From positions 1,364,001 to 1,428,000 of the forward strand of contig JAMXDE010000018.1 of assembly GCA_026770025.1 (NCBI GenBank): a DNA stretch of 64,000 nt, in the 5' to 3' direction. This document shows positions 19,801-53,569 of this stretch, in pieces. The stretch comes from Craspedostauros australis. Lineage: Eukaryota > Bacillariophyta > Bacillariophyceae > Mastogloiales > Achnanthaceae. Every line of letters starts with the position of its first letter. Within the stretch, counting starts at the first letter, position 1. A program made the translations under genes and the position numbers. The notes beneath the pieces are model-generated. The model saw nothing but the letters and a program-made list of their open reading frames with translations, searched no databases and was not told where the DNA came from.

Positions 19801-20250
19801 TTCGTCTGAACCATCTGCATTCATTTTGGTGATTGCGTCCCTGATTACTCTTGCGTCAGGCTTCGGCAAGGTCTTCAGCATCTCCATGACGCGTTCGAAA
19901 TCATCCTTGATGGTCCAGAAATCGTTGTTCTTGAAGACAGAATCGTATCTGTTCACAACGAGCGGCGTGTTACCACTAGCATCGTCGGCCTCACTGGCGA
20001 GTGCGGCCATGCGAAAGCTTGGGCGCCAACGTTGGTGGAGACCATCGTGATGATATTGGCACTGACCGTGACGCAGTTGCGCAAGGAATGGTGAGGACGA
20101 TACCGAAAGGGTGTAGCCAGACCTGAATGGCTGCAATGGTCGTGACAACAACGGTTGGGGGATGGTGAAACCCATCGCAGGAGGCATGGCTGCCATCGCC
20201 TTTGCCACCCTAGTTCCTGTCATCTTGGTCATGAGGCTTGGAGAGGGCAT
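16873..20250 (-). CDS. Large P-loop NTPase, about 1125 aa, possibly Crinkler/RHS-like
   Basis: The frame is open for 1283 codons to 20724, but its first part lies in the transposon end at 20657-20850, so I place the start at ATG 20250 (MPSPSLMTKM). The next 80 residues are rich in Arg, Ser and Pro and nearly free of acidic residues, like an organelle-targeting or disordered leader. Residues about 305-312 form a Walker A-like loop (FFSGSGTGKTVEL, with Ser in the first Gly position). About 415-418 form Walker B (RIVLAIDEAS), and a later strand-turn (VVFSIAGTGMYSG) could be sensor 1. C-terminal charged helices follow, with an Asp/Asn-rich linker near 1050. The P-loop architecture recalls NTPase modules of Crinkler and retrotransposon-hot-spot proteins, but that link is only my inference. 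Stop is TAG. Confidence 0.6.
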   Translation of the reverse strand: MPSPSLMTKMTGTRVAKAMAAMPPAMGFTIPQPLLSRPLQPFRSGYTLSVSSSPFLAQLRHGQCQYHHDGLHQRWRPSFRMAALASEADDASGNTPLVVNRYDSVFKNNDFWTIKDDFERVMEMLKTLPKPDARVIRDAITKMNADGSDEAKMSAWEVDWLNRMVRFRKGVIDMVENKRWRGEVVQMAGWSHEGDHVLTQWLYNARNRDSASYAWKSIEGLGGIDDPSIPLRESVRKILSILHDAPNVRTTHSLYRMDCDDGRAAYYIGKCGFRHMSDASGTPQAVHTVKCDEAPDSSVVRVFFSGSGTGKTVELATSSESRNATITLMHEADGDVATTEPNENRTNQCRAYLKRWVDTDFAYNGEVLSTIVNTVQQRLSTLEKMEATTNAAGDAAGDDEHPNVNDNRIRIVLAIDEASTCPNLAREIIRNYDDLGRDLGHYIMNNGPGGVKEGDSTGHGGLPATETPSAIEVVFSIAGTGMYSGIAGSPSKNFVCLEPSAKKDPKQTYEALCMEYDGQSGKRCKLPTYEKMMETPFMSIIASHNARMTSILINLLAETVLSFGDPYHDLRLISLVFTKFLRCNGFSTLRTDGWTAEGASEGASKQALAVARILAIALYQEELEVPMDIETAMERAMRLDYGIEFERFGTNDINIMYHLVTSYGLVVPVPFEIFDHVVLDEDGNAQVDPAFTQPKSLKKPYLVDPAIQLLCVWLLETGKRVKGSYGFLGETLLPFEALSTQIVGSAITAATTVAQEKRKRIQSILKDTLNMQPKSSTGVPDNTPDHVQEAWDALEDVTPVSVWSDFVLNGMYHQQSAMSLNEPTIPTKPENVEEMTKAQFEEWLKEEIEERISAQKARMQLNRWDGLETKQVDQNFGNNPRELASSYSTADGFDASRYETLVPTFDMDKKLIQGLLKMRETCANLEDDIPHSDTGSFNPTKQNFCPSLTTAAEGSSNLADGYVSTAGVKKITDSAGNFLRWEAGLFTVCVQGRDMFDSHPIDYKTIRHSRDRIYHDLLDIMFGSNRLYCVAGMEDSLAMNTAPPKDDEEDDDNNGNDNGTSLYAGFPTDASPLLSESLNKLDNLRRRSRKINEYGYRITMKDVEMEKELDALEAEDGDWLQNLDQ

Positions 20251-20656
20251 GGTGGTTCTGGGTTTGGTTTCTACGTTGGCGTTGACGTTGACGTTGACGT
20301 TAGTGTTGATGTTGGTGTGAACTTGAGCGTTGCAGTGAATCTGAGGTGCCAGTCTGATCTGGGGTCGCTGGATTGCTTCTTCTGTGGGCTGAAGCTTGAG
20401 TAGGACAGAGATAGCGTGGATGCCGAAGTGGAGTTGATGGTGTCGTTTTCGGTGTTTTGTGTGGTCGTATGATTTGGCACAGCAGATCGATGATTCTTTT
20501 TTTGTGGCTGTGTCAGTGTCGCAAGCCGTTCGATCGGAGCTGCTCTGCTGTTCTGTGTGGGATGTCTGTGGCGTGGTACACCCTCTCGGTCCATCCTCCA
20601 GTGTTTGTGTCCCAACACATAGATCTGGTTCAACGTGGCGTGCGGAGTTCGGATAT

Positions 20657-20850
20657 CCGTGAGGAAAATAAAAGGACTCGTGAGTCCGTTTAGCGCTTAG
20701 TGGACTCACCAATCCACTTGGCATTTTTGTTGTTTCGTAAGTGGACTCCTCAGTCCAGTTACCGTAAGTGGACTGAGGAGTCCACTTACGACCACAAAAA
20801 AAGTAGTCGAATTTCGCTCATCTGAGAAAAGACTACTTCGACCACCCCAC
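20657..20850. repeat. Left multi-hairpin terminal inverted repeat
   Basis: It contains a series of imperfect and perfect hairpins: GGACTCGTGAGTCC, a stem of TAGTGGACT type, CGTAAGTGGACT with loop GAGG (20763-20790), and AAGTAGTC paired with GACTACTT (about 20800-20840). The inverse sequence, about 80-90 percent alike by eye, lies at 35761-35953. Confidence 0.75.
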
Positions 20851-20855
20851 GCTGT

Positions 20856-20864
20856 CACATTTTT
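20856..20864. repeat. MULE target-site duplication, left copy
   Basis: The 9-bp CACATTTTT directly abuts the left TIR of the 20865-23133 element and recurs exactly at 23134-23142. Nine-base duplications are typical of Mutator-like elements. Confidence 0.8.
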
Positions 20865-23133
20865 GAGGAAATTCATTAACCAGCCCTTTTGAAGTGCCGA
20901 TTTGCATCAACCAGCCTGTTTTTGCAACACTTAGTGGCACAAAACGTCCAATTGTCCATGCGACATCCCACCGACACAGGGATTTCGCATCGACTGGCAT
21001 GGTTAGTGCATAAATATAGACTACCTGTACCACACAGGAAAACTTCAAGCCACATCATATTGTACATGTTTATCATCAGCTTCATATTGCCAGTGTAGTC
21101 CAAACGAATGTACACCATCCAATGAGGGAAATACGTGACTACTTTAGTTGTAGATATGTACATCATCCATCTGTTTGCTCCAATTTCTTGCGTTGTGGAT
21201 CGTATTCTGACGACATCTTCATTGCAAGGGCAAATATAGTACAGTTTAACAAATTTAGCGCATCGAAGGCATTCCAATGGGTATACAAATAGCTTGTGAG
21301 TGACTGGATTCATCTAGAAGGTGTTTCGGATTGTATGCGGCCAAATCACGGGATACCGCACGGTGGCTGTGTGCGGTGTGCATGGTGTTGACCAAACCTT
21401 CGTATGAAAGATTCAACATATACCATTCCACCAATGCCATCATAGCAACGGCGCTTCTATGGGTATGGGGTGGCTTGCGAAGATCTGGGTCTTTCTGGAA
21501 GGAGTGCTGGCACCCAAATCTATGAATCTGGTGATACTGTGCGGTACGCATGGCGTTGTACTGTACTCCGCACATCTATGCATTCAGCAGGCCGTTTTGA
21601 GAGGTTCAACCAACCTCACTACTCCAATCATACTGCATAGAGTACGGACATGAATTTTGAAGTATTTGATCCATCAGGAACGGATCCAATTCTATGGATG
21701 CAGATATCACGCAGTAGTGATTGGTACGCATCGCACTGTACATTAATTTGGATGTTTGTACACAGGAACTGGCAACTGTATTCCAATCCAACGCTCCGAC
21801 TACTCCAATCATACGCCAAAGAGTATGAAAATGAAGTTTGAAGTTCTTCATCCGTTTGGAAGGGATCGCAATCTATGGATGCTGATATCACACTGTACTA
21901 AACAGTCCGCGTCACGCTGTATAGCGTTCTGAGAATACGTGCATATCAAGTGTTGGCCATATTGTAATCGAATGCTTGGATGACTCCGATCACACTCTAA
22001 TGGGTGCGGCCATGAAGTTAAGTATTGAATCCATCTGGAAGCAATCCAAAGCTGGGGATATGGATATCTGGTGACGCTGTTTGGGAGGGGGCTCTACGAT
22101 GCGCATTGCGCTGTGCAGCCTTCTGCGGATATATTCATTCAGCCAGCTGGCTTGAGAGATCCGACCAACCGCGTTGCGTCAAGTAGACTCCGAAGGCTGC
22201 GGCCATCAAGGTTGAAGTCCCATATCTGTTTGGAAGGGGTCCATTTCTACGGATGCTGAAGTGGAGTGTCACTGAGCGGCGTCATGACATGTGGATCACC
22301 TGGGCGCATACCGATACGTCTTCCTGGAAGATTCACGGCTTCAAACTCCATGTCCGTGCTCTGTGGAATGCGTTCGGATTAACCAAAGCGTTGGATTGGA
22401 ATATGACCGCCAATGTCTATGCACATATTCTCAGAACGCTGCACAGCATGACGCGTACTGTTCAGAACTGCGTGATATCAGCATCCGTAGAATTGGATCC
22501 CTTCCTGACGGATCAAGGACTTCAAACTTCATGTCCTTACTCTTTGGAGTGTTCTTGGAGTGATGTGGCTGATCGGATCTCTCAAAATGACCTGCCGAAT
22601 GCATAGATATGCAGAAGACTGTACAGCACGATGCGCACCACCCAGTATCATGCGATTCACAGATTTGGATACCAGCATCTCTTCCAGATGGATTTAGATG
22701 CCCGCATGCTAATGATATACCCATTGAAATGCTCTCCATGCTCTTATCTTGTTAGAATGTAATATTGTTGTCCTTTCCATAGAACATGTCATCAGAATAC
22801 GATCCACAGCACAAGGAATTGGAGCAAACAGATGGATGATGTACACATCTACAACTAAGGTAGCCATTTGTTCCTTTTACTAGATGCATTAAATTTTAGT
22901 GGACTATTTGATTGCATTCTATGGCGATTATGCTAAACATGTATGATGTGGCTTATACTTTTCGTGTGTAGTGCAGGTAGTCTACATTTATACCTAAACT
23001 TGCGAGTCGATGTGAGATTTTTTGTCCACGGGACGTCGCATGGACATTTGGACGTTTTGGGTCGCTAAGAAACACAAAACAGGCTGGTTGATGCAAATCG
23101 GCACTTCAAAAGGGCTGGTTAATGAATTTCCTC
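20865..23133. mobile_element. Non-autonomous Mutator-like foldback element, 2269 bp
   Basis: The ends are long imperfect inverted repeats of about 220 bases, starting GAGGAAATTCATTAACCAGC on the left and its complement on the right, bounded by a perfect 9-bp duplication. The interior (about 21250-22740) is built of degenerate units of roughly 180 bases with shared phrases such as TCTATGGATGCTGATATCAC and ACTCCAATCATAC. Units left of about 22250 run in one direction and those right of it run inverted, making the whole element a near palindrome. No transposase frame is present, so mobility must have come from an enzyme elsewhere. Confidence 0.8.
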
Positions 23134-23142
23134 CACATTTTT
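23134..23142. repeat. MULE target-site duplication, right copy
   Basis: Exact CACATTTTT following the right TIR end GAATTTCCTC. Confidence 0.8.
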
Positions 23143-23370
23143 TGGATTCTTCGTGTTGTTGCGTGTAAACTTGTGCACACAGCGATTTTGCATTGAGACG
23201 CACCTCCTCCGTTCTTTTTTACACAATAACAGCAATCAACACTGACTCTACTCTGCATTATATTGTCTTTTTCTACTGTTATGATACTGTTGTGCTACTG
23301 TTATGCTACAGTCATCCTTGCGGGCCTCTTGTGCGTGGAATACGTTGGTGTACATAATTCGTATTGCATA

Positions 23371-25067
23371 TCATCGTTTCCGCTTCCTTCCATGCAGACC
23401 GTGAGTTATGACCTCTGTATCTCTGCTCTGGATCTTGGCTTCGGCGGCTGCCTTGTGCACAGCTTGTATTGCTGCTTCCAGATTCAGGACAGGCACCCTT
23501 GAGCTAATTCTTGTGGCTGTGTTTGTTTGATTTGCCTTGGCAGTGGTGGTTTCACCGTCAGCATTGTCATTGCTTTCGTTGCTCATCTCTCTTGCTATCT
23601 CTGTTACTGCATTTGTAGCTGTGGTGGTTGTCTCATCTGTGTTTGCGCTGATAAAGGCGTTCATTGTGGTGGCTTCTCTCATTGATGCTGGGCCTTCACC
23701 TTCTCTACCCATTCGACAGGCTCCTTGTGCACAATTCGATGACATAAGTTGTGAACAATGATTGCGTCCGCTCCTTTTGCGATGTTTCTTAATGTCATGG
23801 TTAGGGCAATGCCACATGCCATGAGCCACTCCTGTTTGTCAGCTTTGATGTATCAGCAAGCATACAAGTTGCATCCTGGACAGATCCAGTGTCTACACAC
23901 TGAACAGGCAACACAGGTTCCCCTCACGTCTGGACAGTACCTTGCTGCATGCTCACCCTGCCGCAATCATTTGGTCATTTTTATCTCCTCCTTGGGATCC
24001 ATCGTGGATAGGCTGGCAAGCATTCCTTTTTTGTTTTGACGGTCCTCGGGGCATCCCCGTGGCTGCATCTCGCCATCTTCGACGGCTGACCCGCCTGCTG
24101 GAATGATATCAGTGTTGTGGGTCGCTGTCTCCGTGCCTCCCTTTTGTTTCTTGCCCTTTCTTTCGTCTGCAGCCATGACTGCGAGCAACTTGCGCAACCG
24201 AGCAATGATTCATCCCATCACCTTATTCAGGCTTCATTCATGATTTACTCTGCTGGGATAATGTTCGATGGTGCCAGTGTGGCCTGCTTCAATTTCATGA
24301 TCGGAGTGTGCCTCTGTTGCATAGTGAATCAATCAATGCAGTGCCACAAACATGGTTTGTAGCTGTCAACCGACTGCTATGCAATGGATTGTTGCAATGA
24401 GTGGGGACGCTTTGTGCTGCTGGATGAGCTTTGTTGTTATGTCAGACCCACCATTCAGGCATTTCCATACAGCACAGTTCAGGGGAGGAACGTCTTCACT
24501 GGAGGTACTGGGAAAGCAAGAATGTTGTGGTGGGTTTGTCAAATCTTCTTGTGATGGAATACATCATCCCCTGTGATGTTCCGCAGGTTCTTGCTTGCCC
24601 TGCAGATCTTGTTCGTCTTTGGGTTCAGCTTGAGAAACTCTGTATGGAGCGTCTTGGATGATTGCTGATCTGCCTCTGGAATTTCAGGGAAGGCAAACGC
24701 CAAGAGCAAACGGGATGCATCTTCAGGAACGTTCTCAGAATGATGCAAGAGGCCAAGGGAAAACCTCGTTCCTACAAGGCACAGGATGTTTCCCTTTTTG
24801 TCTCCTGTCACCCAATCGAGCGTTCATGTAAGTCAGTGGTTGTGGAAAAGGGATCCACAGTTGTGTGAGAAGACAGATGAGGTTGGTACGGAACAAGGTG
24901 AAGCCATTCGGATATGGAGAACCTGTGTTGCATTTGCCACAAGGCGCACTTACCGATCACAATCAGAGCTCCTCTCACACCATAGACACATATGCATGGT
25001 GAAGCACCTGAATCATTTCTTCGTCTGCCCGGAAGAGTGAGCGATACGTTTCATCTTGTGCATTCAG
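23371..25067 (-). pseudogene. Degenerate transposase, C-terminal part (Cys-rich end)
   Basis: Reading on the minus strand from 25067, protein-like segments alternate between frames, which points to several frameshifts. First comes LNAQDETYRSLFRADEEM with a helix (QVLHHAYV), then GALIVIGKCALWQMQHRF, then a long stretch at 24539-24811 (LVGTRFSLGLLHHSENV), then CAVWKCLNGGSDITTKLIQQ. A Cys cluster follows near 23830-23930 (CVACSVCRHWICPGC), and the end is Lys/Arg-rich (GLHGRKRKR, stop about 23371). The WKxLxGGSD segment plus terminal Cys-rich finger suggests a piggyBac-like (DDE_Tnp_1_7) transposase, by inference only. Stops inside the best frame are all TGA. The gene was continuous with the piece at 33430-35496 before the LINE inserted. 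Confidence 0.5.
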
Positions 25068-25083
25068 ATATAGATGGGTGCTA
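25068..25083. repeat. LINE target-site duplication, left copy
   Basis: The 16-base ATATAGATGGGTGCTA is repeated exactly at 33414-33429 on the other side of the LINE. Confidence 0.85.
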
Positions 25084-25239
25084 AAATAAATAAAAACGCA
25101 AAGATTAAACCCTCTTATGAGGCTGCGCCGGTGGCGCTTTTCTCCGCCTCCTTTCAACCTCGCGCCTGGCGCGAGGGGAGCACGGAATCTGTGTGTTGTG
25201 ATTTTGTGTAATATGCATGTCCGGTTCGCTGGAGCTGCA

Positions 25240-28200
25240 TCAACCTTGACCTAGGTCGGGGTGCGCTTGCCGGCGACATTGGAGCCACTTGAGCAGGGCG
25301 CCAGAGGCGGCCGGCTCGTGGATCGCTAACGCTGCTTGCTCTACCCATACCGCGATCAGAGGTATCGCCGCATCTTCACTCGGCTTCGTTTGAAGAAGGC
25401 GTTGATGAAGTATCTGGTCCTGCTCGAGGCGGAGCCGAAGTGATTGCGCCCTATCTCGCAGGGACTGAATCATTTCGGCTTCGGCCGAGGTTGGACTTTC
25501 GAATTGGGCCTCGTTTCGTGACGCCCACTGATCCCACGCTATATGCCATATACGTCGCACCAGTTGCCGTGCCCACTTTGAGGCTGATCTTCTCGACTTT
25601 TGCTGCTGCAAGAATTCTTGTTGGAGAGATATCCAGTCTTGGACTAGCAGCCCCTGCCGCAATGCGACCGGGCCGACCGATCTCTGTCTGCGTGCCGCCT
25701 CATGAAGCTGGCCGCCTTGACTTGTTGCCCAGAGATACGCCGATCCTTCGAGCTGGCTGCGTAGGATGGCCAGAATGACAGTAGTGACCCCCGGCGCTGT
25801 AGGATATCGCCTGAGCCACCTGCCAATGTCCTTCAGATGACGACGTGCGACTCCTCGGCGATCCTCTCCTGGGCATCGCCAGAAATGCTGCGCGTCCTCT
25901 CGTGCGTCGCAGCTGGGACACGCATCTGACTGCCTGAGACCCCACCGCTTCATTCGCGACCCCATTGGAGCCTCTCCTGTGATTAGTTTGACGGTCAGCA
26001 GGCGTCAGGTGAAGCTGAGCTCCCGAAGAGCTGTCCCTACCGCGTCCCACGCCACATGTATGGCTTGATCCACCACCTTTCTGGATGCCAGCACTTGCAC
26101 CGACTCCCTGAATGTTGGAGCGTGCGCCACTGTCCTGTATGCTATCCGTGTCAACTTCCTTCGGTTCGCGAACGAGACTCTTTCTCCATGTATATGGCCA
26201 CCATAGACCGCCGAGGCTGGCAACGAAAGCCTCGCTGCTGTTGCCAACTTGTCCGCGATGATGTTCATGTGCGCCCATTGGTCGAGGGAGCTCCAGCTGG
26301 CTTGATCGTCCTGATGCCCCTTAACATGGCGCCCATTGACTCGGATGGGTATTTCATGGCGGAGATTTCGCACCGCCCGCAGCATATCGGCGTCGGTTGA
26401 CGCGGGTGACAGGCTCCATTCCAGGTCCAGGGCATGTAGAGCTCCGACGTTGTCGCAGCCCACCACCACTGCGCCAGCGGTGATGCCGTAGACTTCACAG
26501 ACCGTAGCCACTATCACGAGCACTCCGTACATACCCGCAAGCTCTGCGCGATGGGACTGCATGGTCCCGTCCGTAGCAGGTGCCAAGTTCGTTATCAGAA
26601 GCTGTGCCGTTTCGCCATTGCACTTTGCGAGGAGAACTGCGCCCGACGCGCCTGTACCGTTGGCCACGGACCCGTCGCTGCACGCCATGAGCGTACCTCG
26701 CTGAGCTGCCTTGGCCACTGTGTCCCAGCTGCCTTGAATTTCGTATCTCCGAACTGACCATTTCTTCGACGATGGCAGCCTCATCAACGCTTCGTCCATG
26801 CCTACCGAGCTCGCTCGGTCGGGCTGGATTCCTTGCGCTGTATTCGTGATGATGATCTGTGCTCCCTGCCAGTAGCCGTCGGCCACATGTGATGCCTCGT
26901 CTGAGTTCCCTTCCATGAGTTCGTAGGCCCGTCGTCTGCCCCGCTGTGGCACCCGTCGAAACTGCTGCTGTGATAGCGGTAGGCTCACTCTGTCACTGGC
27001 GGGGTCCCAGAACACCTCCGGCCGTTGCGACGAGTACTCGTTCCAGTCTCCCAGCGCTTGCCCCAACCTTGCCGACTGGGTGCGCGACGCTTGGAATAGT
27101 CCTCGGATGGCTTGACTCCACAAGCGCCAACTTGCGCTGCCAATGCTTCCCACTGGCGGCCACCGCATACAAGATTGCCGAAGAGGGATGTGACCTGGCT
27201 GCTCCGCTGCTGGGTGAAGATTGCAGCCGTCCGCCGTGACGATGTCCGACATCCAAAAGACTTGCTTGGATACCCTGCATAGATTGACAATTCGCTCCGC
27301 TTGTTGCCCGAGCTTGAGGGCTTTGATGCGCACCATGATCGGCGCATCACGTTCTCGTGGGGCGTGCAGTATCCGGTTCTCCCACTGCACTGTAATGCCC
27401 ACCCTCTTTGTTTCCAGCCACACAGCCTTCATCCAGGATTCCGAAGCAAGATGGCTCCATGCGCTAGGCTCCATGCTCATCACGTCCGGTACGCCGACTT
27501 GAATTGTCATCAACTCCACCAGAGTGTGCATGAGCTTTCCCGTCAGCGTGCTCCGCATCCAATGCCGCGCCAGGGCTTCGAGATGCTTCGTTACTTGCAC
27601 ATAGTACAGGTGATGCACCTCCATGCCCAGCCCTTCTGACGCCCGAATATGATCTTTCTTGACATGTTACGCTGCAGACCTGCTGCTGGAAGTGACGCCA
27701 ACAGGACCGGCCGCATGATTCGCTCACATGCCTCGTTCGTGAAGGTTGCGCTCATTAGCGGGTATTCCAGCGCCTTCCAGATGGTCGCCTTCATTGCTAT
27801 CCAAGCATGTATTCGGAGCATGCGACTTCGCCTCATTTTGTCCGCCCACTGGTTGGCCTTCTTTGTGTAGTACTGCTCGTTATCATCCTGAATCCCATCG
27901 TGTCGCACCATTACCCCCAGCGCCTTGCGCGCTTGATCAACGTGGAGCCTCACAAGCGTCGACCGCTGCTGGCTGTCCGGTTGTCGGATGCTGATGTCAC
28001 CTGGCTGCTCGGCGACACTCTTATACTGCCACGCCTGGCCATCCCACTTGAACGCCATGAGGTACCAATAACTTTTTCTGGGCTCGAGTGCACCTCCTGT
28101 CGCTCGCAGCATTCCCTCCCATGAATCAACCACTTGCTGAATTTCTGATATGCATGCTTCTGGGTCGTTTACGTCTGCTTTGATTGTGTGTATGAGATCC

Positions 28201-30719
28201 GTGTCGTCCACGAAGGAAAAGCATACCAATTTGGTGCTGACCGATTGGGTGGGGCTAACCGACGCGAAGCCGTATCCTTGGGCCGACATCGCCTTCATGA
28301 TCGGGGAACTCATTGCCACCCATCCAGCGGGAGATATTCCGAGCCCCTGCAGCAATCCTTGTAGCTTGGACCCGCGGTGAGGGTATGTGCGCGTAGATTT
28401 GCCAAACCCTGTGAGCACGTGATGTCGCATAGACTGTACTGCTGCCGTCACGCTGCGACCGACCACTTCTGGCACCCCTATCTGTTGCATGCTGAGCTCC
28501 AGAGGTACATGCGCCATTCTGTCGTAGCAGCTTTTCGCATCATTTGAGCAGATGCAGCTGGAGGATGCCGTCAACCGCACGATGTCGTCCGTCATTCGAT
28601 TGTTCAGACTGACCTCTGCTGCGCTGCGTTGCTTCCGGCTTCCATATTGTTCGTCTGGCAGTAGGTGATGCTTTTCCGCGTGTCTCATCATTATTTTCCC
28701 TATCCATTTCAGATTGGCATTGAAATCTCCCTCCACAAGGCTTATCGTTCGGAACCTGGAGACTCGAAAGTTGCCTGGCTCCTTTAATAAGGTGACATCG
28801 GTGCACACTAACCACCGTTGAAGGTTGTATCCAGTGCGCAGAGATATTTCCCTCATGACAGCGTCGACATGCGCGAGCTCGTCGGACCCAGCATTTGCTT
28901 TCCATAGACCAAAGTGAAGCCCTGATGGACCTGATGTGGTTCTTTCGCGCGCCTTCGACCACAACCTCTGATGACTCTCCGTCGTGACAGCTAGGTCCGA
29001 CTCTTCCCATGGGATGACTTCAGTCTGGCTGAGAGCTTCCAACAGTTTGGTCGTGTGTAGGTCGAGCTTTCGTTGGTGCCGCCGACTTGCTCCTTGCGCT
29101 CCGTATTTTTGCACGTCTCGCGCGACTGCCGGTTGTTGGAGAGGAGTTACATACGCCTGCCGGTACTTGGCTTCGTTGGCTCGCATGCATTGCTCGATGA
29201 CTGCGTGCTCTCGATCGTACACCTGTTCTTCTCCGTCGGGATTGGTCGCGATCACCATCGTCACTTTGCCACTCGAGTCATATTCCCCGACCGCCGCTCG
29301 TATAGCCTTGAACGTCTCCACTGTCTCCTCTCGCTTTTGTATAGAGATCAGAGCTGCTGCTGACGTTGTGTTGCCGTCTTTGGCCATCTCCGCCGCTCTG
29401 GATTGTAGGAATGTTTGTCTGTGTTTGAGGGCGTTTTTCTTGGCAGTCTTCCAACGGGAGTGCGCTCGCTTCCGCTTATCTTCCAATTCGTCCTTGCTGA
29501 GAGTTGCTGTTCGCGTGGCAATGCCTGCCTGCTTCTTTGCTCGCTCATACCATCTGGAACTGACTTTCTTGCCGTTCCTCCTCTTCCATGCCAGATTCCA
29601 AAATTGTTTCTCCATGGCTCTTCGCTTTATCTCCGGTGAAAATGGAACTCTTCCTGTGTGGATTGGACGAGCTCCTTTCTCTGCTTGGAGCATGATTCTC
29701 GCCCTGTCTTGATTGATGGACTCCATGGTAGCCGCTTGTGCCGATGTGAGTTGATTCGATGCGCCAACTGCCTTTCGGAGCTCGTCAACGCGCCCTCGAA
29801 TGTTCTTGTCACGATATTGTGCTGACACCGCCTTCTGGTACCTCCGAACTGTGATCGGTCTGTTGAGCTGAACTCTGCGTCCCTCGAACTTCTTGGTGGG
29901 CTTGCTGGTTGTGCCAAAGATGGATTCTTGGGAGACTTCAATCCATGCAGTCCTGTGGTCCCATGGACCGAAGGCGCTGAAGCCTGATCTCACCACCTGC
30001 ACCGACTCTGACACCCACAGCCCGTCGATGACTCGATTAGATCGAGCACGCACGCTGGTTGACACTCCTGGAGCGTTTGGATGTCGGCTGAGGATGGACT
30101 CCTGCATGTGCTGTCTTTGCATCATAGTCGCCACCTGGGATTGTATCACCGGCATGTTGACGTCGCCGCCAACTATTATGGTTTCGCCTGCTTGTCGCCA
30201 TTCTTGAAGCGCCGCCTCCAGGTCGTGGATGAGGAGTTCGATGGGCGAGCTATCATTCCCTTGCGATTCCAGCCACGATGCCTGTTGGTTGTACACTGTG
30301 CCTGCACTTTGTCCTCCTTTGACAGGAACGTACACGCTCACGAATCGAACCGTGGAGTCCTGTCATCCTCTGACTGCTATGCTTGACCACCTTCCTAGCC
30401 GGCGTGGGTCATTCTCCAGACTTTTGTACCGCCCGGTTACGTTCCCCACGATTGTGCAAGCTGTCCCTCCCCATTGGCGCGTGCTCCCCAGCTTCTCCTT
30501 CTCATTGTATGCCAGCGCATGTCGTTCTGAGTGCATGTGTCGCTTTGCTCTTGTTTTCCATGAGTCGACCCTGCCCAGTTTCGACCAGTTGATGCCGATC
30601 TCCGTGAGTAAGGCAACGTCGATCTTCATTTGCTTCACCCACTGCCACACATCGTCATTCTTCCAATGTTTCGACTCGGCATGAAGGCATCCCACGTTGA
30701 GAGCGGCTATTCGTATCAT
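25240..30719 (-). pseudogene. LINE ORF2: APE endonuclease, reverse transcriptase, RNase H, zinc motif
   Basis: It starts at ATG 30719 (MIRIAALNVGCLHAESKHW, endonuclease strand 1). The endonuclease continues with IVGGDVNMPV, RVIDGLWVS and WDHRTAWIEV, the usual Asp/Asn and His residues. The reverse transcriptase has motif A (CSNDAKSCYDRMAH), motif B (GLLQGLGISPAGW) and motif C (FSFVDDTDLIH, near 28210). RNase H follows, with CSDGSV, SHRAELAGMYG, VVGCDNVGAL and HVKGHQDD. The end has a zinc-binding C-x2-C-x7-H motif (CPSCDAREDAQHFWRC). Breaks: TGA at 30363-30365, a frameshift near 27600-27640, and TGA at 26005-26007; the frame continues in register after each TGA. An RNase H after the RT is found in several LINE clades, including those of algae. 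Confidence 0.8.
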
Positions 30720-30858
30720 AGTGCCACCCTTTGTTCGCGGTGAGTCGCCCCAGTGCCGGTCGTGGAGGATCAGACCTTCCTGACTCCTTTCCTCCGGGTT
30801 TGCATCCGTTGGGCTTGCGGGGGTGGTTGGCGATGCTTCTCCTGCCCCCAGCCTCGCG

Positions 30859-33288
30859 TTAGTCTTGGTCCTCGCCCCTACCCTTGCTTGAGGCAGGTGG
30901 CGTGGCCGTGGACGCCTCCAATTGGGCGCGCAGTGCCGCTATGATTGACTCTTGGTTGAGGATCTTGTTCGATTGTTCTTGCACTCGAACTCGACTGGCC
31001 GCCAGCTCTTGGGCTTCCCTTGCCATTTTCATGGCCTCTTCGATCTCTGCGTCGATGTCATCCTGTTCTGTTTGGGATTCCGGAATGGTGTATCGTGATG
31101 AAGCTACTGACTTGCCGTACTCTGTTCCAAAGGTTTTGAAACTCTCGTCCTCCAATCTGGCTTTCTTTCGTTTGGGGGATGCGTTGTCGCTCTCCATGAG
31201 GTTGAGACCCTCGATGACGACATTTCCAAACCCCTCGTCCAATAAGAAGTCCATTTCTTCTTCCGTCTCCACGTCCACATAGTCTCCACTGGCGTCCTTC
31301 TTCATGGTGCTGCTCATCGCTACGATGTCTTCCGAGAACCATTTGTTCGTTGACTCGTTGATTTCCGTCGAACATCTGATGCCAATGGTGTGAATCAGAC
31401 CGACCGCCTGTGCAAACCGCTCCTCGAAGGCCACAATGTGAATCGCGTCTTCCTTGCCGTCCGCCATGTGAGTAGTGCTGACATCGTGGATGAGCGGATT
31501 GCCTTCGCTGGTTTGTTGTGACAGGAATTCTCGCAGAGTGATGGTGCCCGTTTCCGGATCCTTGGTATCTAACGCGAAATCTCCTTTGAGTTGCTCGTAT
31601 TTCAGCCTACGCACGTAGTTCTGGTGTTTCCGAATCATGGCTTGCACCTTCATCGCCGTCTTCGCTCCCATGACTGATGTGCCAGGTTTGGGCACGTATC
31701 TGTAGTTGAGTCCTTTGCGATCGCCATCTTTGGTGTTGAAGATTTTTCCAAGGAGTTTCGACGCCCTGCGCGCGTCCTTGACGTCCGCGTGCAGATGGAG
31801 CGCCATCCACGGAGAGTTGTACCAACTTCCACCGTCTTGCAGGTGCTTCGTTTTCACTTCTTCCGATACCTTCCCCATGAATTTCACCCTGCCGCCCACT
31901 TTGAGCTTGGCTCTCTTCTCCTCCAGCAACTGGTTGATGATCCCAAGCGTTTGTTTCGCCTTGGTGAAGTTGCCCGAATATGCCATGAAGCCTATCTCTG
32001 TTGTGTGTTCGGCGTCCTTCAAATCCTGGATGTACGCGTACTCTCCTTCATGGTATGCTCCTTCAAGCTCCGTGTTCCAGCTCGTGAACACCTGCATTTC
32101 GACGTTTGAGGACATCAGGATCTGTAGGTATACGTCTTCGCTTTTCGATGTCGGGTTGGCCCTGCCAATGTAGTATCTGAGATCTTTCCACATGGCTGGT
32201 ATGTCGGCCTCAGTGATGATGCATCCCTTTGCCTTGTTTTTCTTGTACCATGGGCTTATGACGAGACTTTGATCCATGCCTTTGGCTTCGTCGTACCACT
32301 GGCAAAAGCGCTCTTGGAAATCCCGAACTGGCGTTTTCGTGCCTTTGGGGATTTTGAGCCGCATTTCGAATCTTTCGTAGTATCGTCGTCTTGGGCTTGA
32401 CATTTGGGGCTGCTTCTTCTGATGCTTGGTCCATCCTTCACCGTCTGCTTCTGGGTTAGCGTTGCTCTCGTTTGCTGCCGGAGCTCGAGCTGTGCTGAGA
32501 TTGCCATCTTTATCTCTCGGTGCTGGCGATGTGATCTTGGTGTTCGTTGTGTAGGCTGTCAAATTGGCCTGCTTCAGAGGCTTCTTTGTTACCAACCCCA
32601 CGAGGTCGTAGCTGTCGTCGTCGCTGTCCATCTTCATTTCCTCGTCCGCTGAGTCCACTTCAGGAGGGGGTTTCTCCGCCATGTATTGGCAACCCATGTA
32701 GGCTGTTGCTGCCGCCCACAGAATCGTCATTTGGTTGGCTATCATCGATTTGCCTCCTGGCTTGGCTTCGTCCGAGAAGCATTTGGCCGGATCCGCAAGT
32801 GACAGGTCCACTACCAGTTGCTTGATCGCCTTTCTGTCTGGATCATCCGAGGGGACTTTGGACTTCCCCAACTTCGTGGTTCGCCCGTCCATCACTGTTT
32901 GGAAGAATACGGTCATGTTTTTGATGCTGGGCATGGTTGCTGACACCATGGAAGTATCTGCCTTCTCCCACATGGCTTTCTTGATGAGAGCTTTCTTCAC
33001 TTGGTTGTGCATTGCGCGCCCGTCTTCGCCGTACTTCTCGCTGGACTCGAATCCCTTCGCTTGCTGTGCGATCTCGTCGTTGAGTTTTTTCCACCGCGCC
33101 GCGTTCGGATCCCTCCAAGTCGTCGCTACTTCGCCCCGTGTCTCCATCAATTCGTCTTCGTTGCTGCTCGGATTTGGCTTGGGAGGGGGCTTGGGTGTTG
33201 CGGTTTGCACCGCTGGCCCATGCACCTCCGACATCTCGACGTCGTCTGCTTTATCCTCCGTGATTCTGACTTGCTTTGTCACCTTCAT
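30859..33288 (-). CDS. LINE ORF1 protein, 809 aa
   Basis: An unbroken frame from ATG 33288 to TAA. The N-terminus is charged and Pro-rich (TPKPPPKPNPSSNEDE). The middle is basic and contains HQKKQPQMSSPRRRYYERFE, followed by a compact region with many Trp and Tyr. The C-terminus (about 740-809) is a heptad-like Glu/Ala/Gln-rich helix (EEAMKMAREAQELAASRVRV). I see no CCHC knuckle or RRM signature. By position it should bind the LINE RNA and help form the ribonucleoprotein. It is separated from ORF2 by about 140 bases, so ORF2 would need reinitiation or separate initiation. Confidence 0.7.
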   Translation of the reverse strand: MKVTKQVRITEDKADDVEMSEVHGPAVQTATPKPPPKPNPSSNEDELMETRGEVATTWRDPNAARWKKLNDEIAQQAKGFESSEKYGEDGRAMHNQVKKALIKKAMWEKADTSMVSATMPSIKNMTVFFQTVMDGRTTKLGKSKVPSDDPDRKAIKQLVVDLSLADPAKCFSDEAKPGGKSMIANQMTILWAAATAYMGCQYMAEKPPPEVDSADEEMKMDSDDDSYDLVGLVTKKPLKQANLTAYTTNTKITSPAPRDKDGNLSTARAPAANESNANPEADGEGWTKHQKKQPQMSSPRRRYYERFEMRLKIPKGTKTPVRDFQERFCQWYDEAKGMDQSLVISPWYKKNKAKGCIITEADIPAMWKDLRYYIGRANPTSKSEDVYLQILMSSNVEMQVFTSWNTELEGAYHEGEYAYIQDLKDAEHTTEIGFMAYSGNFTKAKQTLGIINQLLEEKRAKLKVGGRVKFMGKVSEEVKTKHLQDGGSWYNSPWMALHLHADVKDARRASKLLGKIFNTKDGDRKGLNYRYVPKPGTSVMGAKTAMKVQAMIRKHQNYVRRLKYEQLKGDFALDTKDPETGTITLREFLSQQTSEGNPLIHDVSTTHMADGKEDAIHIVAFEERFAQAVGLIHTIGIRCSTEINESTNKWFSEDIVAMSSTMKKDASGDYVDVETEEEMDFLLDEGFGNVVIEGLNLMESDNASPKRKKARLEDESFKTFGTEYGKSVASSRYTIPESQTEQDDIDAEIEEAMKMAREAQELAASRVRVQEQSNKILNQESIIAALRAQLEASTATPPASSKGRGEDQD

Positions 33289-33413
33289 CGTCGTTTTGGA
33301 TCTTTCGTGTTACGTAGAATTTGCTGTAGATTTCGTACTTGATTTTGTTGATGTGTGTCGTTTTTGCTTTTACTAGTGTTATCGTTGTTTTTGTTTTTTC
33401 GGGTTCTGATATT

Positions 33414-33429
33414 ATATAGATGGGTGCTA
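33414..33429. repeat. LINE target-site duplication, right copy
   Basis: Exact second copy of ATATAGATGGGTGCTA next to the 5' end of the LINE. Confidence 0.85.
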
Positions 33430-35496
33430 GTTGGGAAATTGTGCACATGTTCCACATTTCCGATGCGACTCCCCTTTCAGTTTTGTGTTCTGAGTTGTTC
33501 TCGTCTTCATCTCTACAATGAATACCTCATTGTGTGCATCATTGGTTGGATCCCCCACAATGTTCAGGAAATCGATGGAGGCACGTACGTAGGTATTGCT
33601 CTGTTTCCGGACGAGGCCAGCATGAAATGCGGCCTTGATGGTCGTGTTGATTCCACCCACATGTTTGCAGTTCATGGCTGCTCTCATCAGTAGTTCCTCG
33701 TTTGCATGTCCCAGACGTGTGTAGGCATAGGATTTACCATGCCAGGCCTTCATGAACCATGCCTGCAAAGCCGTCTTTACAAGCTGTTGCTGCAGTTCCA
33801 GCAACTGGGGTGATGCGGTACCATCACTTCCATTGCTGAGCACATCATTTTCGTTGTGTTCTCCTTGTGTATCAGTCTGGAGACTGGAGTTACTGTTCCT
33901 TGTTGCTGCTGTGGCTTAGTCTGCATTATTGGATGGGAATGAAGGATTGCTGTGCTCTGAGCTACCTCTATTTTTGCGTGCAGCTGTGCTATCATCTGGT
34001 TGGCATGCGTCAGTGAATGCTGATGTGTCTGCAGCCTCTGCTCTACTGGAAGCACCTGCATTCGACGCGGATGTGGCAGTAGTGGATGGACCAGAGGCAG
34101 ATGTGCTCGATGCTGCAGTGTCGGAAGCTGGCATGCCTGATGTGCAAGGGGTCGGTGTGTTGAATGTGGACAATGTGGATTGTGAGGCAGGTGAGCCTGA
34201 AGTCTTGGGCACAGATGCTGCAGCTGTGGCTTCTTCAGTGGGGTGTGTGTTGCATGCCGAAGTTTGAGGATATGGAGGATTGAGCTGGAGATGAAGGGAG
34301 AGCGAAAGTGCTGACGACTGAGGTTGTAGATGTTCAAGTCTGCCGAGCAGACAAAGATTGTCCTTGATGGCAGTGGACAGACTTTGTGCGCCTTGATGCT
34401 GGTGTGAGTCGAGATGGCCTCGTCCATCTAGAAGCAGATGATCTCGTGCTGTGCGTTGTAGATGTGGATGGAGGAGGAGCTGATGTGGCAGACATCAATG
34501 CGGATGATGTGAATGAAGGGGAGGCACAACAACTGCATGTACTAGGTGCAATTGCATACCTGCCAGAGTTGCGGTTGATGCTGGCTGCAGCATCACTTGA
34601 CTGCTGGGTTGCAGCAGCCTGGGAAACACTGACTCCCTTCTCATGGGCGATGCCATGCGGATCCTGCAGTTGTTTGTCGTCTGGCTAGGAGATGGGATGG
34701 AATGGTTTGCATTGGTCAAAGCAGCCATCATTGCAGTCTTGTAGAGGATGTCCAAGTCCTTTGAAAGCTGCTTCATGCACAGCCCTTGAAAACGGTTTGG
34801 CGGCATTGTGCAGTGCTTGCAATTTGCCTTCCCATGGGTGCTCAGGGTGAGGCTGAGCTTGTTTTGCAACGTCTTGGCTGGACGCTTGTTTCCGTTGCAC
34901 GAGCGCAGACAGGTGCAGACTTTCTGCTGAGCAGTCATCCTCTGACCATTGCGCAACAGAGGCTTGTAGGTTGGCCTCCAATTTCAATGAGTTGTCTTGT
35001 TCATTTGTGAGCTGCTTGTAGTGCACCTTTGCATCAAGCAAGACCTTTCCCATAGCAACACAAACTCTACCATGTTGGGATCCAGCATCTTCCATTGCAG
35101 GCCCATAGAAGCCACTCGTTCTGGTTCTGTCAGAGCTGGTTGTTCAACAGTTCCAGATGTGCCAGTTGCAGATGTGCTGGTTGTAGTTGTGTTAGTGTGA
35201 GCATCATTGGGGATGATGATGTTGGCGGCAGCAACAATGGCAGCAATCAGCATGGCTGCTGGTGCATTGTTGGCCACATGAGCATTGCCAACAGAGTAGA
35301 CTCCAGTATCAATTTTGTTGGCGTCAACATTGCTTTCGTTGTGGACACCAAGGATGTCATCATTGTTGTTACTGTCAAGATCGATTGGGGTATCAACAAC
35401 CCAGTCTTCGTATGAACTGTCGGTGTCATTGTTGCTGTGGTTGGTGGTATCTGCTATGTGCTTGATGAGGGATGCGATGTCAGGCAAAGTACTCAC
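33430..35496 (-). pseudogene. Degenerate transposase, N-terminal part with PD-(D/E)XK-like nuclease motif
   Basis: Minus-strand segments in changing frames. First an acidic, Asn/Asp-rich start from about 35496 (MSTLPDIASLIKHIADTTNH), then a helical region (34685-35095), then Ser/Thr/Pro-rich linkers (33916-34212), and a compact domain (33427-33843). This last domain contains GLVRKQSNTYVRASIDFLNI followed by FIVEMKTRTT, matching the Asp...Glu-x-Lys signature of PD-(D/E)XK nucleases. The breaks include a TAA near 33914 and a TAG at 34685. After this domain the frame meets the LINE insertion and should continue at 25067. A nuclease-like domain fused to a transposase is unusual. The family is not identified. 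Confidence 0.45.
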
Positions 35497-35760
35497 GATG
35501 AAACAAGCTTCTTGAAGCTGGTGGGAACCTAAACAGTGTTATATTAGAGGAACATTTGATGATGAAAGACGTTGATGGTACTGAAGGGGACGAAAATTAC
35601 GATAAAAAGCTTGTGATTACACACAAAGTTGTTGTGTTACCATCTACAAGTCTATTGAAGTCCAAGGATGCGGTTGACAACACGTAAATCAACGCGACAA
35701 AATACGAAGCCAGCATCACAACCAGAACGCAACCGAGAGAAACAGGGAATTTGGAGGAGG

Positions 35761-35953
35761 TGGAGTGGTCAAAGTAGTCTTTTCTCAGATGAGCGAAATT
35801 CGACTACTTTTTTTGTGGTCGTAAGTGGACTGAGGAGTCCACTTACGGTAACTGGATTGAGGAGTCCACTTACGAAGCCCAAAAATGCAAGGGGGTCGTA
35901 AGTGGACTGGTGAGTCCACTTACGAAAACGCCCACACAAAAAATTCCTTACGG
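35761..35953. repeat. Right multi-hairpin terminal inverted repeat
   Basis: Inverse counterpart of 20657-20850, with the same AAGTAGTC...GACTACTT hairpin and three TAAGTGGACT-type hairpins (for example 35820-35847). It ends CTTACGG next to ATAT. Confidence 0.75.
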
Positions 35954-35957
35954 ATAT

Positions 35958-36021
35958 CCCTAATGAGATTTTGGGCCCCCGATGTGACAAATTTGGATCG
36001 ATGTGCCACATTTGTCACATC
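35958..36021. repeat. End of a second hairpin element (type X), abutting ATAT
   Basis: It starts CCCTAATGAG directly after the ATAT at 35954-35957 and contains an imperfect hairpin at 35981-36021 (arm GATGTGACAAAT). The same end sequence, inverted, occurs at 42441-42490. The other end of this element was not found, so it may be truncated. Confidence 0.5.
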
Positions 36022-36216
36022 CTGTGTGTTCGCATCGGCCGGCTGAGGTGGTACTGATAATGTTTTTTCGACTTCCACACAGCGTTATCGCGGAGAGGCG
36101 CTTTTGTGTCCTCAAAACTCTTGATTGTTGTTTCTCCAGGATTGGCGTTTGTGCTTCTGTTGGTTTCCGACGACGGTGAGACTATTCGATGCTTCACGGA
36201 ACTTGTTTCAGTGCTA

Positions 36217-36270
36217 CTAGCTGCAGAGAATGTAAAATGGGGTCACGATAGCACTAGTTGTAGAGTTTTG
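36217..36270. repeat. Left terminal inverted repeat of mariner copy 2
   Basis: It starts CTAGCTGCAGAGAATG after TA and is the inverse of the right end at about 40940-40992, differing at a few positions. Confidence 0.8.
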
Positions 36271-36726
36271 GCCCCTTGTTGCCACTGGTTTGCTTGCCTT
36301 TGGGAGCAACGGCGATTGTATATTTAGAGCTATTTCGTGTAGTTCCTCCCTGATCCGTCTTCTACGTCACAGGAAGGATTCGACGTCATGCGAAACCACT
36401 CACAACACAAGATGTGAGTGCGTCTCGCAGCACGTCGCCCTTGCTTCGCGAGACAACGTGATGGCTGCGCAGCACACACCAATCGCGCCGCAACACACGC
36501 GGACCGTGCCACAACACAACGTGACGACTTCGCGACACAACACACCGATCGTGTGGCGACGCGCACCAACCACGACACAAAAATCACGGTCCCCGTCTCA
36601 AAAAACAAACAAACACAACACATCACATCACAATCCTCCATGCCATCAAGAAAACGATGCGCACACCACCATTCGAACCACAGGTGTACCTCACACATAT
36701 AATACTACTACTACTACGATTTGCAG

Positions 36727-39279
36727 CTACACCTCTGCTGTGTTGGCATCCTGCTCTGCTTTGCTGTGATGCTCAGTCTTGCCAACGAACATGGCAACTT
36801 TGAATGTATTCATGGTGGGTGCTGCTTCGGTCTTGCTCTTGTTGTTGTGGGGCTCAATGATCTCGGCCTTGCTCTTGCTGGGCGTCTTCTTCTTCTTGCC
36901 TTTCTTCTGTTGCTCAGCCTCCTCGTTGGCTCTGGTGGTCGCAACGATTTGCTTCTCCAGCAACGGAATGAGGCTGCTGGTTGTTCACAGGTTCGTTTTA
37001 AGGCATTGCAGACCACTGACAGCCATCACCTTGAGCGCATCATTGTACATACCTTTGATGTCGGGCTTGTTGTATTTGAAGCCAGCTGATTTGCCTTTCT
37101 TGCCTGTTGCAGTTGGTTTCTTGGTGGTCGTGTTGGTTGCCTCATCCTCCTCCTCCTCCTCCAACACGAAGTCCGTGTGAGACACAGTCACACCGATCTC
37201 ATTGCCGTCCTCGTCAGTTTCGGTGAACGTTTGCTTCCGCACGTTCATGCTCAGTCCCTTGCGCTCCGTCACAAATTCGTCACCTCCTTTCGCAGCACAA
37301 ATTGCGTAGGCGATCTGATGGTGGCGAACATACGCGCGAGCTACCTTGTCCAGCCCAAATTGCTCCCAACAGGTTCCACAAGCACCCCACAACGCATCAG
37401 TGGTGAACATGCGACTCCCGTGGTGCTTACCTTGATGCGCTGACACGTGTTTCGACATCGCTGGGAATATTGTATCGTCTTTCACGTTCGTGATGGGAGA
37501 ATTTGATGGTTGAAATCGGAGGTGCCACCCGCGACTGTCGAACTCCTTGTTGATGAACCTGAGCAGTTCCGTGTCTCTGTGTGGCCCTGCGCCATCCATC
37601 TGGTACCGAATCACCACGTTTTTTCCCGTTTCGGCCTTGATTTTGCTGGCGAGCGAATCCAGTGCAGGGAGTTCTTTTTCGCGGAAGAATTTCTTGAGGC
37701 TGTACTTCGGCTTGGGCTTAACACGATGACCATCTGTTTCCTTGCTGCCCGTGATCTCCAGTGGTTGAAAGTACAGTTCACCCTTCTTGCGAGAGATTTT
37801 GTTGGGATCAGGAAGGTGCTTGTACTTGGTTGGCGAGACCCAAGTTCGCTTGTACGTATTCTTCTGCGCTCGAACCATGCGCCCAACACGTTCAAAGCTG
37901 ACCTTATACGCCTTTCCTCCTCGATCAAAGCGGTTGTCTGTTGGAGCGAACGCTGTTGATGCAATTGCCATGGTCTTTTCGATGTGGCACTTGTGGTGCA
38001 CAGGATGCTTCACAGGCTTAACCCCCATTTGGGGCACATGTTTGAGGTTGCGCCGAGCGACAATAGAGTAGAATCACTTCTCATCCATGTGGACAACAAC
38101 AACTTGTGTATTCTCGAACTGCTCAGCTGCTTCCCAGAACACACAGAAGTCCTTGGCCCAGATCTTGCGCTTTGCCTTCGTGTCGCCCTTGATCTTGGGG
38201 AGTATTGTTGTGGAACGGTATTCGCTGCCCTCCAATCCCATCACGTATGTTCGGATGGTGTCTTTGCAGACGCATTGGACGTTGCCGTTTCCTGCTAGTT
38301 CGCGTGCAACATCGTCCCACGAGATTGCGCCATTGCATCGTCGCAACACATCCTGGAGCTCAACTTGCAGGAAGGGACCACGCTCCAACCACGAATCAGA
38401 CAGGGATTTTGCGGATGCCAGCTCTTCAGGCGAAGCATGGTCAAAGGCATAAGAGATGTCCTCAGTTGTCAACCGTTGTCTGGGATGCTTAAGCCGCAGT
38501 TGCTTTGCGAAGATGGCACGCGGCGTGAAGTATTGCTGTTGCTTCTTGGGGCAAGTGAAGATGGTGCTGCCCGCATCGCTGCGCTTCTTCCGTTCCAGCT
38601 TGTTCTGTTGGAATTTCTTGATGTTGCGATCGACAGTGCTAGTGCCAATATCCCACGCGTGGGCGATCAATTTCATGTTGGCTGGGATCCCACCCAAATT
38701 GAAATAGAGAACGATGTAGTTTTGATGTTCGTCTCTGCCAAGTTGTTTCTTTCTATTGATGGTCTTAGTGTTGCTACACCCTCCATCCTTTCGCATCCAT
38801 CCTTTTGTTTTCGCGCCTCTCTTCATCTGCTTGTTGAGACGGGCGATTGCTGTTGCCTTCTGCTGCCGCGAGACCTCGAGGAAAGCTGCGATTTTGGCTT
38901 CTTGCGATTCCGTGGTAGTTGGGGATGGTGTGGGGGGCTTAGCCTTGTTGTTGGCACGCGTGGCAGCGACGGAGTGATGCTGGGGAGAAAGGAGGGAAGG
39001 CTTAGCAAGGCCACCAGCGTTTGGAGTCTGTGCGAAGGTAGCGAGGCTGTGTGGCGCGCACAGATCCTCACGAACAACATACATTCGGCTCTGCCCCATC
39101 ATTGGGGTCACCATGACCATTGCCACCTCTCCTGGTGCAAGAGGCCCGTCGCGTTTGACTGTAGCTCCGTCCGTGGTCTGCTTCATTGCAAACTCAACAT
39201 GACATACGCCCAGGTCATGGACCCTGCCACTTGCGCTCTGGTGGGGTGCCACCTTCACACAGTCACCAACGCGCAGCAT
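36727..39279 (-). pseudogene. Mariner-like transposase, copy 2, with two in-frame TGA codons
   Basis: Collinear with the intact 849-residue protein of copy 1 and in one frame throughout (about 850 codons), starting MLRVGDCVKVAPHQ. A TGA at 38074-38076 replaces the Trp codon of the catalytic DEKWF motif. A second TGA at 36985-36987 falls in the C-terminal tail where copy 1 has Pro. The remaining catalytic residues (MDGAGPH, NVKDD) are preserved. No frameshift is visible over 2.5 kb, so decay is recent or held in check. As read by the standard code, it would give a product ending at the first catalytic Asp region. Confidence 0.8.
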
Positions 39280-46809: not shown

Positions 46810-47343
46810 TGTTATCTCGTTATTGTACACAGCGAAATCACACGAGTCCTTCAAGAGAGATCAAGTCTTTCAGGACGAGGGTGACAAGCTGGTGAGTGAA
46901 GACACTGTTTGGGTTGAGTGACTTCTGGTTCTTATGTTATCTTCATTGAGTTGTATCTCATGTTGCTGTCTTCAAGGTCAGCTCTCAGTCATTGCACCTC
47001 GAATCCGATCTTGTTCTGATGTGGAGATGACCCATGATGTGGCGATGATGTCTTCTGTGTCGACGTCACTCGTCACTGTTCCATGGCTCTGTCGATTCCA
47101 CATTCCATTGATGATGCTTGAGGTTGTCGAGTGTGTTGTCATTTCAGGTTTAGTTGGGAAGTATATCAGGTCGGATTGGACATCACATGTTTGCCGGGCA
47201 ATGGCCAGACCGAATCTCTGATGTTCTCTCTAGTGTGTCCCTCTTATGCCGAAAATCATGTGTCGGAGTAAAGCATCGTTTCAGCACATACCGGGACAGA
47301 CTAATCAGAAAACGAATCAGGTGAATAAAGCATTGTGCTAATA
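46810..47343 (-). repeat. Copia LTR 1 (about 534 bp)
   Basis: The outer boundary is exact: sequence identity with the other LTRs begins at TGTTATCTCG, which reads ...GATAACA at the 3' end of the element. The inner boundary near 47343 is inferred from the adjoining purine-rich tract on the coding strand (TTTCGGGGAG). It would start TATTAG rather than the usual TG, so it may be off by a few bases. Contains GTGAATAAAGC near 47321. Confidence 0.75.
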
Positions 47344-47368
47344 CTCCCCGAAACGTATCTTTTCGCAG

Positions 47369-52759: not shown

Positions 52760-52760
52760 C

Positions 52761-52860
52761 TTGTTCGGTTCGTTACGGAGAAGCGGATACGCTGTGCTCG
52801 GTATGTTCGTTTGTTCGGTTCGTCACGGAGAAGCGGATACGCTGTGCTCGGTGTATTCGT
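52761..52860 (-). repeat. Two 50-base direct repeats in the copia leader
   Basis: The sequence from 52761 repeats at 52811 with few differences (shared ACGGAGAAGCGGATACGCTG). It lies between the Gag start and the LTR, in the 5' leader of the element RNA, and recurs in unit 2. Confidence 0.8.
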
Positions 52861-52996
52861 GTGCGCTGCCTTGGAAGGCTCTTGTTGTTGTTCGGTTCCT
52901 GCTTCACGTCGTCACGTGATGCAGTTGGTTCGTTGCTGATGGGATCAGCTCGGTGGGTTGGAGTTGTTTCACGCAGTCAGGTCAGGACGTAGTGCT

Positions 52997-53544: not shown

Positions 53545-53569
53545 CTCCCCGAAACGTATCTTTTCGCAG

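Follow-up and report, generated by a model that had tools for sequence, protein, structure and literature searches.

ATAT-flanked transposons with a predicted nuclease-bearing DDE transposase in the diatom Craspedostauros australis

A degenerate, hairpin-ended element occupies positions 20657..35953 of a 64,000-nucleotide stretch of the Craspedostauros australis genome (assembly GCA_026770025.1, contig JAMXDE010000018.1, positions 1,364,001 to 1,428,000 of the forward strand; hereafter, the window). The locus raises two questions: to which kind of transposon does it belong, and could this copy have moved by itself? An earlier note, made from the letters alone, had described an autonomous-size copy of a piggyBac-like family broken by two later insertions. 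Our analysis points to a cut-and-paste lineage with several characteristic features: (i) ends inserted at an ATAT target, (ii) a working form of ~6.3-6.6 kb, and (iii) a DDE transposase bearing a nuclease domain, the window copy itself stemming from an internally deleted master amplified in trans. Taken as a whole, we consider this reading likely to be correct.

The ends of the element, at 20657 and 35953, carry the inverted pattern CCGTRAGGAA and adjoin ATAT on their outer sides (20653..20656 and 35954..35957). The left end (20657..20864, forward strand) has the CCGTGAGGAA terminus and the right end (35759..35953, reverse strand) the TTCCTTACGG terminus, and both contain hairpins and palindromic repeats. 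The 10-bp pattern by itself is weak evidence, as the window has two matches where 0.19 are expected, and 2 of 100 shuffled sequences also gave two. The subterminal palindrome GTAAGTGGACTNNNNAGTCCACTTAC, sought with up to three mismatches, was found five times in the window against 0.00 expected, twice in the left end (20737..20762, with one mismatch, and 20764..20789) and three times in the right end (35821..35846; 35848..35873, with two mismatches; and 35898..35923), and nowhere else. Single-stranded folding of the ends gave z = -9.0 (left) and -6.5 (right), and an Rfam scan of window positions 20000-37000 gave nothing at the gathering cut-off. Coordinates, ATAT flanks, folding, and palindromes all agree with the hairpin-rich inverted ends that had been described.

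Searched against the genome, the left end matched 94 stretches. The flanks were compared in 16 insertions with both ends recognised, drawn from 28 fetched stretches and the window (one insertion joins L014 with L015); the copies on C2 (L019/L035) and C3 (L024/L025), as well as L020, L021, L027, L030, L032, L033, and L034, in which two ends were not recognised, stand outside this count. The 4-bp flanks are equal in 16/16 complete insertions, being ATAT in 15 and GTAT in one (L028), and since GTAT flanks L028 left and right, the four bases belong to the target and not to the element. The recognised termini among the copies outside the count all adjoin ATAT, and one further non-ATAT row of the scan is an internal look-alike in L028 (GTTT). 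Sought genome-wide irrespective of its flank, CCGTRAGGAAWWTT occurs 59 times and is preceded by ATAT in 57 cases; the two termini outside the ATAT list are C41:431360 and C81:71399 (GTAT copy). The pattern ATATCCGTRAGGAA occurs 92 times in the genome, and its reversed control 0 times.

The joined flanks of the 16 insertions were also searched against the genome, and 40 of the 754 candidates were scored. Similar empty sites were obtained for five insertions at 93-99% identity, namely L017 (99%, 136 bases), L012 (98%, 136), L028 (99%, 137 query bases in 138), L029 (93%, 135 bases), and the insertion on C64 (98%, 126 bases), and none was shown for the other 11; the single 4-bp copy at these sites is read from the matching lengths, not from the letters. 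The termini are of the YY...RR type (CC...GG), and no TTAA duplication was met among the 16 insertions. All this describes one lineage, in which short inverted termini (CCGTRAGGAA) and subterminal palindromic repeats go together with an ATAT target-site duplication (TSD) of 4 bp. The genome search and the empty sites, both proposed in the earlier note as checks, bear out its claim of a single family with CC...GG ends and ATAT duplications.

Two side observations concern the same ends. At L030 5295-5310, a family B end (see below) abuts a second CCGTGAGGAA terminus with a single ATAT shared between them; here an element has inserted right beside another. In addition, inverted ATAT ends lie ~3.3-3.5 kb apart in five pairs (C2:901197-904674, C4:853336-856662, C11:728996-732333, C55:140436-143766, and C55:350584-353918), which suggests that these termini are also used by a further short family.

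Longer relatives reveal the gene that such ends enclose. One of them, L022 (C29:636920-643221), is a 6.3-kb element ~84-85% identical to the window copy, with ends of the same kind. Used as genome queries, its C-terminal exon gave 104 matching stretches and the central exon of L057 at least 127, many of the latter in frames that stay open for 660-1,073 codons; such a number of intact frames makes the system approachable. At four loci, on C29 (L022), C60, C16, and C3, a central exon with the second catalytic aspartate (D2) is accompanied by a C-terminal exon that shares at least 45% identity with that of L022. At three of them inverted ATAT ends enclose the gene at a distance of 6.3-6.6 kb from each other (C29:636916-643225, C60:101068-107716, and C16:1210182-1216682); at C3 the ends, at 3612535 and 3633754, are separated by 21 kb that include a long interspersed nuclear element (LINE), and their pairing is assumed. 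With that assumption, the gene at each of the four loci is enclosed by two inverted ATATCCGTRAGGAA ends. The L057 subfamily on C13 shows no such ends in the genome-wide ATATCCGTRAGGAA list.

The exons display these motifs in order: LDDDK (putative first catalytic aspartate, D1), a putative intron, DRG[YF] (D2), a PD-(D/E)XK-like nuclease, and KGGSD (putative third catalytic residue, D3) with a cysteine cluster. In L022 and L061/L059, LDDDKVH stands in the exon ahead of the central one, and we read the GT...AG stretch after it by eye as the putative intron. In six aligned central exons, DRG, an aspartate at position 193 (D193), and the nuclease motifs are invariant (6/6), and D2 and the nuclease share a single open frame in every row. 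The C-terminal exon contains KGGSD and CxxC...CxGC in L022 and L057. The working form, of ~6.3-6.6 kb, would encode a multi-exon transposase, with splicing and catalysis predicted.

The region around D2 matches the profile PF01609 (DDE_Tnp_1), with E = 3.9e-5 and 23.9 bits for trimmed L059 (cut-off 23; untrimmed, 22.5 bits) and 4.7e-4 and 20.4 bits for trimmed L060 (same cut-off; untrimmed, 18.5 bits), which supports the DDE nature of the predicted transposase. In both proteins, DRGY and the region preceding it match this profile of IS4-type DDE transposases; the match is limited to approximately positions 38-101 of 200, and inspection by eye, in place of a formal search, showed no YREK box. 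PF13843 (DDE_Tnp_1_7), the profile that the earlier note had named for comparison, gave no match in the hmmscan of the element proteins and none among the matches listed at C29:636-643k, C3:3612-3634k, C60:101-108k, C16:1210-1217k, or in the window. The genome holds 160 matches to PF13843, many in long open frames, alongside the ATAT lineage.

The nuclease follows D2 and occupies a central place in the protein, and its motifs are invariant in 6/6 rows, including E827, D869, E889, and K891 (L022 ORF2 numbering). Lambda exonuclease, YqaJ, and RecE-like nucleases have the same blocks in the same order (QxDxxWxxxR...TS, GxxNE, SxDF, and VExKTR); the first two blocks are ~60 residues apart (by eye) in lambda exonuclease versus ~270 in L057 and ~500 in L022. 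When compared with an alignment of 11 phage exonucleases, both halves of the domain align in order (P 0.0013 and 0.001) with scores of 26.7 and 29.2 versus 13.6-16.9 for three unrelated pairings, and column-shuffled profiles equalled these scores in 1/200 and 0/200 cases. Single-sequence searches gave hints of RecE-like phrog_434 (0.021, in one of six members) and of the viral alkaline exonuclease PF01771 (0.021). A lambda-exonuclease/YqaJ-like PD-(D/E)XK nuclease within the transposase is fairly well supported by these comparisons; unlike its phage-type counterparts, it would form part of a transposase. The earlier note had placed a nuclease-like domain at the N-terminus; the domain stands, but it follows the second catalytic aspartate and looks N-terminal in the window copy because the DDE part is deleted there. 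No relatives in viral contigs or prokaryote genomes were confirmed by tblastn, the 80 loci of lambda-exonuclease relatives found in viral contigs at 98-99% were not used, and searches of PDB sequences with single proteins gave no match.

How does the window copy relate to this gene? Without the two later insertions it measures 4,673 bp, in agreement with the ~4.7 kb first estimated. On the reverse strand it retains (i) the N-terminal acidic region (35056..35688; L022 ORF1 residues 1-213), (ii) the central exon from L022 ORF2 residue 375, with the linker and the second half of the nuclease (33414..35047), whose last part, cut off by the LINE, lies at 24943..25079, and (iii) the C-terminal exon with the KGGSD region, here NGGSD, the cysteine cluster, and fixed in-frame TGA stops (23374..24832). 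The two halves of a degenerate gene that had been proposed are indeed split by a LINE but amount to three coding pieces: N-terminus, second half of the nuclease, and C-terminal exon. At the junction 35048..35055 (reverse strand), 1,609 bp of L022 (1933-3541) are missing, and this deletion takes out D1, D2, and the first half of the nuclease.

The same 1,609 bases are absent, with 0 present, from 11/11 aligned copies (4,508-5,165 bp, the window copy included), and all 11 have TGA at L022 positions 5714, 5888, 5921, 6020, and 6044. The common deletion and the fixed stops indicate a single dead master as the source of these copies, which are 95.4-99.0% identical when compared in pairs (mean 96.3%, 55 pairs). 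The window copy is not autonomous but an internal-deletion derivative, and the description of it as autonomous in size fails, as it and all ten related copies lack this coding region. Probably a single dead, internally deleted, and stop-ridden master was spread in trans to yield a non-autonomous family of ~4.6 kb, for which full-length relatives with the same ends would supply the transposase. The ten copies other than that of the window are 88-91% identical to L022 in their ends versus 82-85% in most of the interior, and the adjoining 3' stretch reaches 89%.

In a second family, B (L028-L034), five of the seven loci match the L022 protein, in the N-terminal, second-nuclease, and C-terminal parts only, and L032 and L034 showed no match to that protein. 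The first ~65 bp of the window left end resemble family B (L028, L031, L033) and the remainder family A; thus, the ends appear to have recombined. The observed/expected CpG ratio reaches 0.92 in a 10-kb flank within the window and 0.68 in L022, compared with 0.53 for the window copy and 0.52-0.57 for the ten family A copies that were fetched, and several stops of the deleted copies sit at CGA, CGG, or TGG codons of L022. CpG decay as the only origin of the TGA stops was rejected; transitions run both ways in similar numbers, and thus we claim no special mutator.

Both later insertions have TSDs of their own. A foldback element (20865..23133) is flanked by the 9-bp TSD CACATTTTT (20856-20864 / 23134-23142); the earlier note had named a Mutator-like element (MULE) here, and its insertion is confirmed, the element being MULE-like by TSD length and foldback form only. 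The LINE (25084..33413, reverse strand) is flanked by the 16-bp TSD ATATAGATGGGTGCTA (25068-25083 / 33414-33429) and contains a reverse transcriptase (RVT_1, E 7.7e-10, at 27594-30362, reverse strand); the earlier note had likewise placed a LINE between the transposase parts. Copies such as L009 are unbroken at both joints, so the two are real later insertions. The C3 element (L024, L036, L025; C3:3612535 onwards) also holds a LINE, ~75% identical to that of the window; it lies in the opposite orientation at a different site and is, therefore, an independent insertion.

Two other features of the window were recorded. An open frame of 1,283 codons without a Pfam match (16873-20724, reverse strand) starts inside the transposon left end, and joining both transposon flanks puts a stop directly upstream of the insertion site in this frame. 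At 46797-64000, near-identical Copia-like units are repeated head to tail at a spacing of 6,201 bp, and the first of them matches RVT_2 (1.6e-22). Three 1,278-codon frames show 0 and 1 differences over 3,837 bases; this array is either a real tandem or an assembly effect.

Several results weigh against the proposed transposase. The HH-suite probability of the nuclease halves is 18% and 21%, unrelated families appear at E-values similar to those of the weak single-sequence hints, those from PHROGs among them, the two genome matches to PF09588 (YqaJ) are both away from these loci, and a profile search of PDB sequences returned neither a nuclease nor a transposase, its one match being a sulfurtransferase (E 1.1). 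L022, L057, and L058 gave no PF01609 match in profile scans; no profile matched over the full length, and other Pfam scans gave families at chance level (e.g., LAT, 0.0046, on a low-complexity L031 frame). D1 and D3 were each seen in two subfamilies only, and the invariant D193, ahead of the nuclease, is another candidate for the third catalytic residue. With a trimmed piggyBac profile, the D1 exon aligns to a non-corresponding place, and shuffles equalled the real score in 14, 5, and 85 of 200 cases for the D1, D2, and C-terminal segments, which leaves the segment around KGGSD at shuffle level.

The last of these results bear on piggyBac, the system to which the element was first compared. 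The piggyBac transposase carries a KGG-D motif. Both systems have CC...GG-type termini, a self-complementary 4-bp target, subterminal palindromes, a C-terminal cysteine cluster, and a motif of this kind, and in one comparison the D1 exon, D2 region, and C-terminal exon align in order on the genome's own DDE_Tnp_1_7 proteins (E 0.29-0.52), D1 over 17 columns only. This could reflect a divergent true piggyBac that took up ATAT as its target in place of TTAA and acquired a nuclease domain. We regard that as possible but unlikely: the TSD is not TTAA, none of the PF13843 matches listed, out of 160 in the genome, falls at these elements, PF01609 is the better profile match, D1 and D3 segments score near the shuffled level, and the placement of D1 is unstable. 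The CC start, the 4-bp AT-rich duplication, and ATAT in place of TTAA were rightly noted, and the kinship itself is suggestive. The nearest kin within the RNase H-like DDE clan is probably piggyBac, from which the ATAT elements, with their different target and a nuclease in the protein, would form a separate lineage. It looks like an undescribed one, and the earlier note's surmise to this effect is probably right; a literature search, which had most subscription papers and Repbase outside its reach, yielded no description of an ATAT target combined with a nuclease-bearing transposase.

In the mechanism that we propose for this separate lineage, the C-terminal cysteine cluster would bind the subterminal palindromes, by analogy with the cysteine-rich domain that binds a palindromic-like 19-bp repeat in piggyBac (PMC7351741). 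The DDD core would make 4-nt-staggered cuts at ATAT, and the nuclease would trim or resect donor or flank DNA. Because ATAT is self-complementary, excision could be seamless and leave no footprint, as in piggyBac. On a bolder version, held tentatively and at somewhat less than even chances, the lineage would rank as a superfamily, with a phage-recombination-type exonuclease nested between D2 and D3, at approximately the place of the piggyBac insertion domain, and with ATAT giving footprint-free excision in a second seamless tetranucleotide system independent of TTAA.

The place of the nuclease depends on the third catalytic residue, which may be either KGGSD after the nuclease or D193 before it. 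With KGGSD, the nuclease would be inside the catalytic core; with D193, it would lie downstream of the core, as reported for KolobokE, which, according to PMC9587614, also joins a DDE transposase and a lambda-exonuclease-like nuclease in one element. The invariance of D193 and its position ahead of the nuclease fit the second arrangement. We nevertheless find a KolobokE-like element, with D193 and not KGGSD as the third residue, doubtful, as the same source gives Kolobok a TTAA TSD, RR...YY termini, and a C/DxxH motif, in contrast to ATAT and CC...GG here; no C/DxxH column is present in three or more of the six central-exon rows, and none is common to the L022 and L057 C-terminal exons.

ISL2EU (PHIS) transposons likewise combine a DDE transposase, a YqaJ-type exonuclease, and an AT-rich target, and the element could be a relative of theirs. 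According to PMC4482050, their TSD is the 2-bp AT and the exonuclease occupies a separate ORF, whereas four bases are duplicated here, judging by GTAT on both sides of L028 and by the lengths of the empty sites, and a single open frame covers D2 and the nuclease in 6/6 rows; we consider such a relationship improbable. That ATAT is a piece of the terminus (ATATCCGT...) with no target duplication has next to no chance, even with 15 of 16 flank pairs reading ATAT and the letters of the empty sites unread, and was rejected on the GTAT copy, with which the empty-site lengths, fitting a single 4-bp copy, agree.

Our preferred reading, a lineage of its own with ATAT-target ends and a nuclease-bearing DDE transposase, matters mostly through its comparison with these systems. 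In piggyBac, strict TTAA targeting and seamless excision are two faces of one mechanism (PMC7351741), and similar ends with a different strict tetranucleotide offer a comparative test of that rule. In other transposons the nuclease lies downstream or in a separate protein, whereas here it appears fused into the transposase, which points to a recurrent need to process ends or donor DNA.

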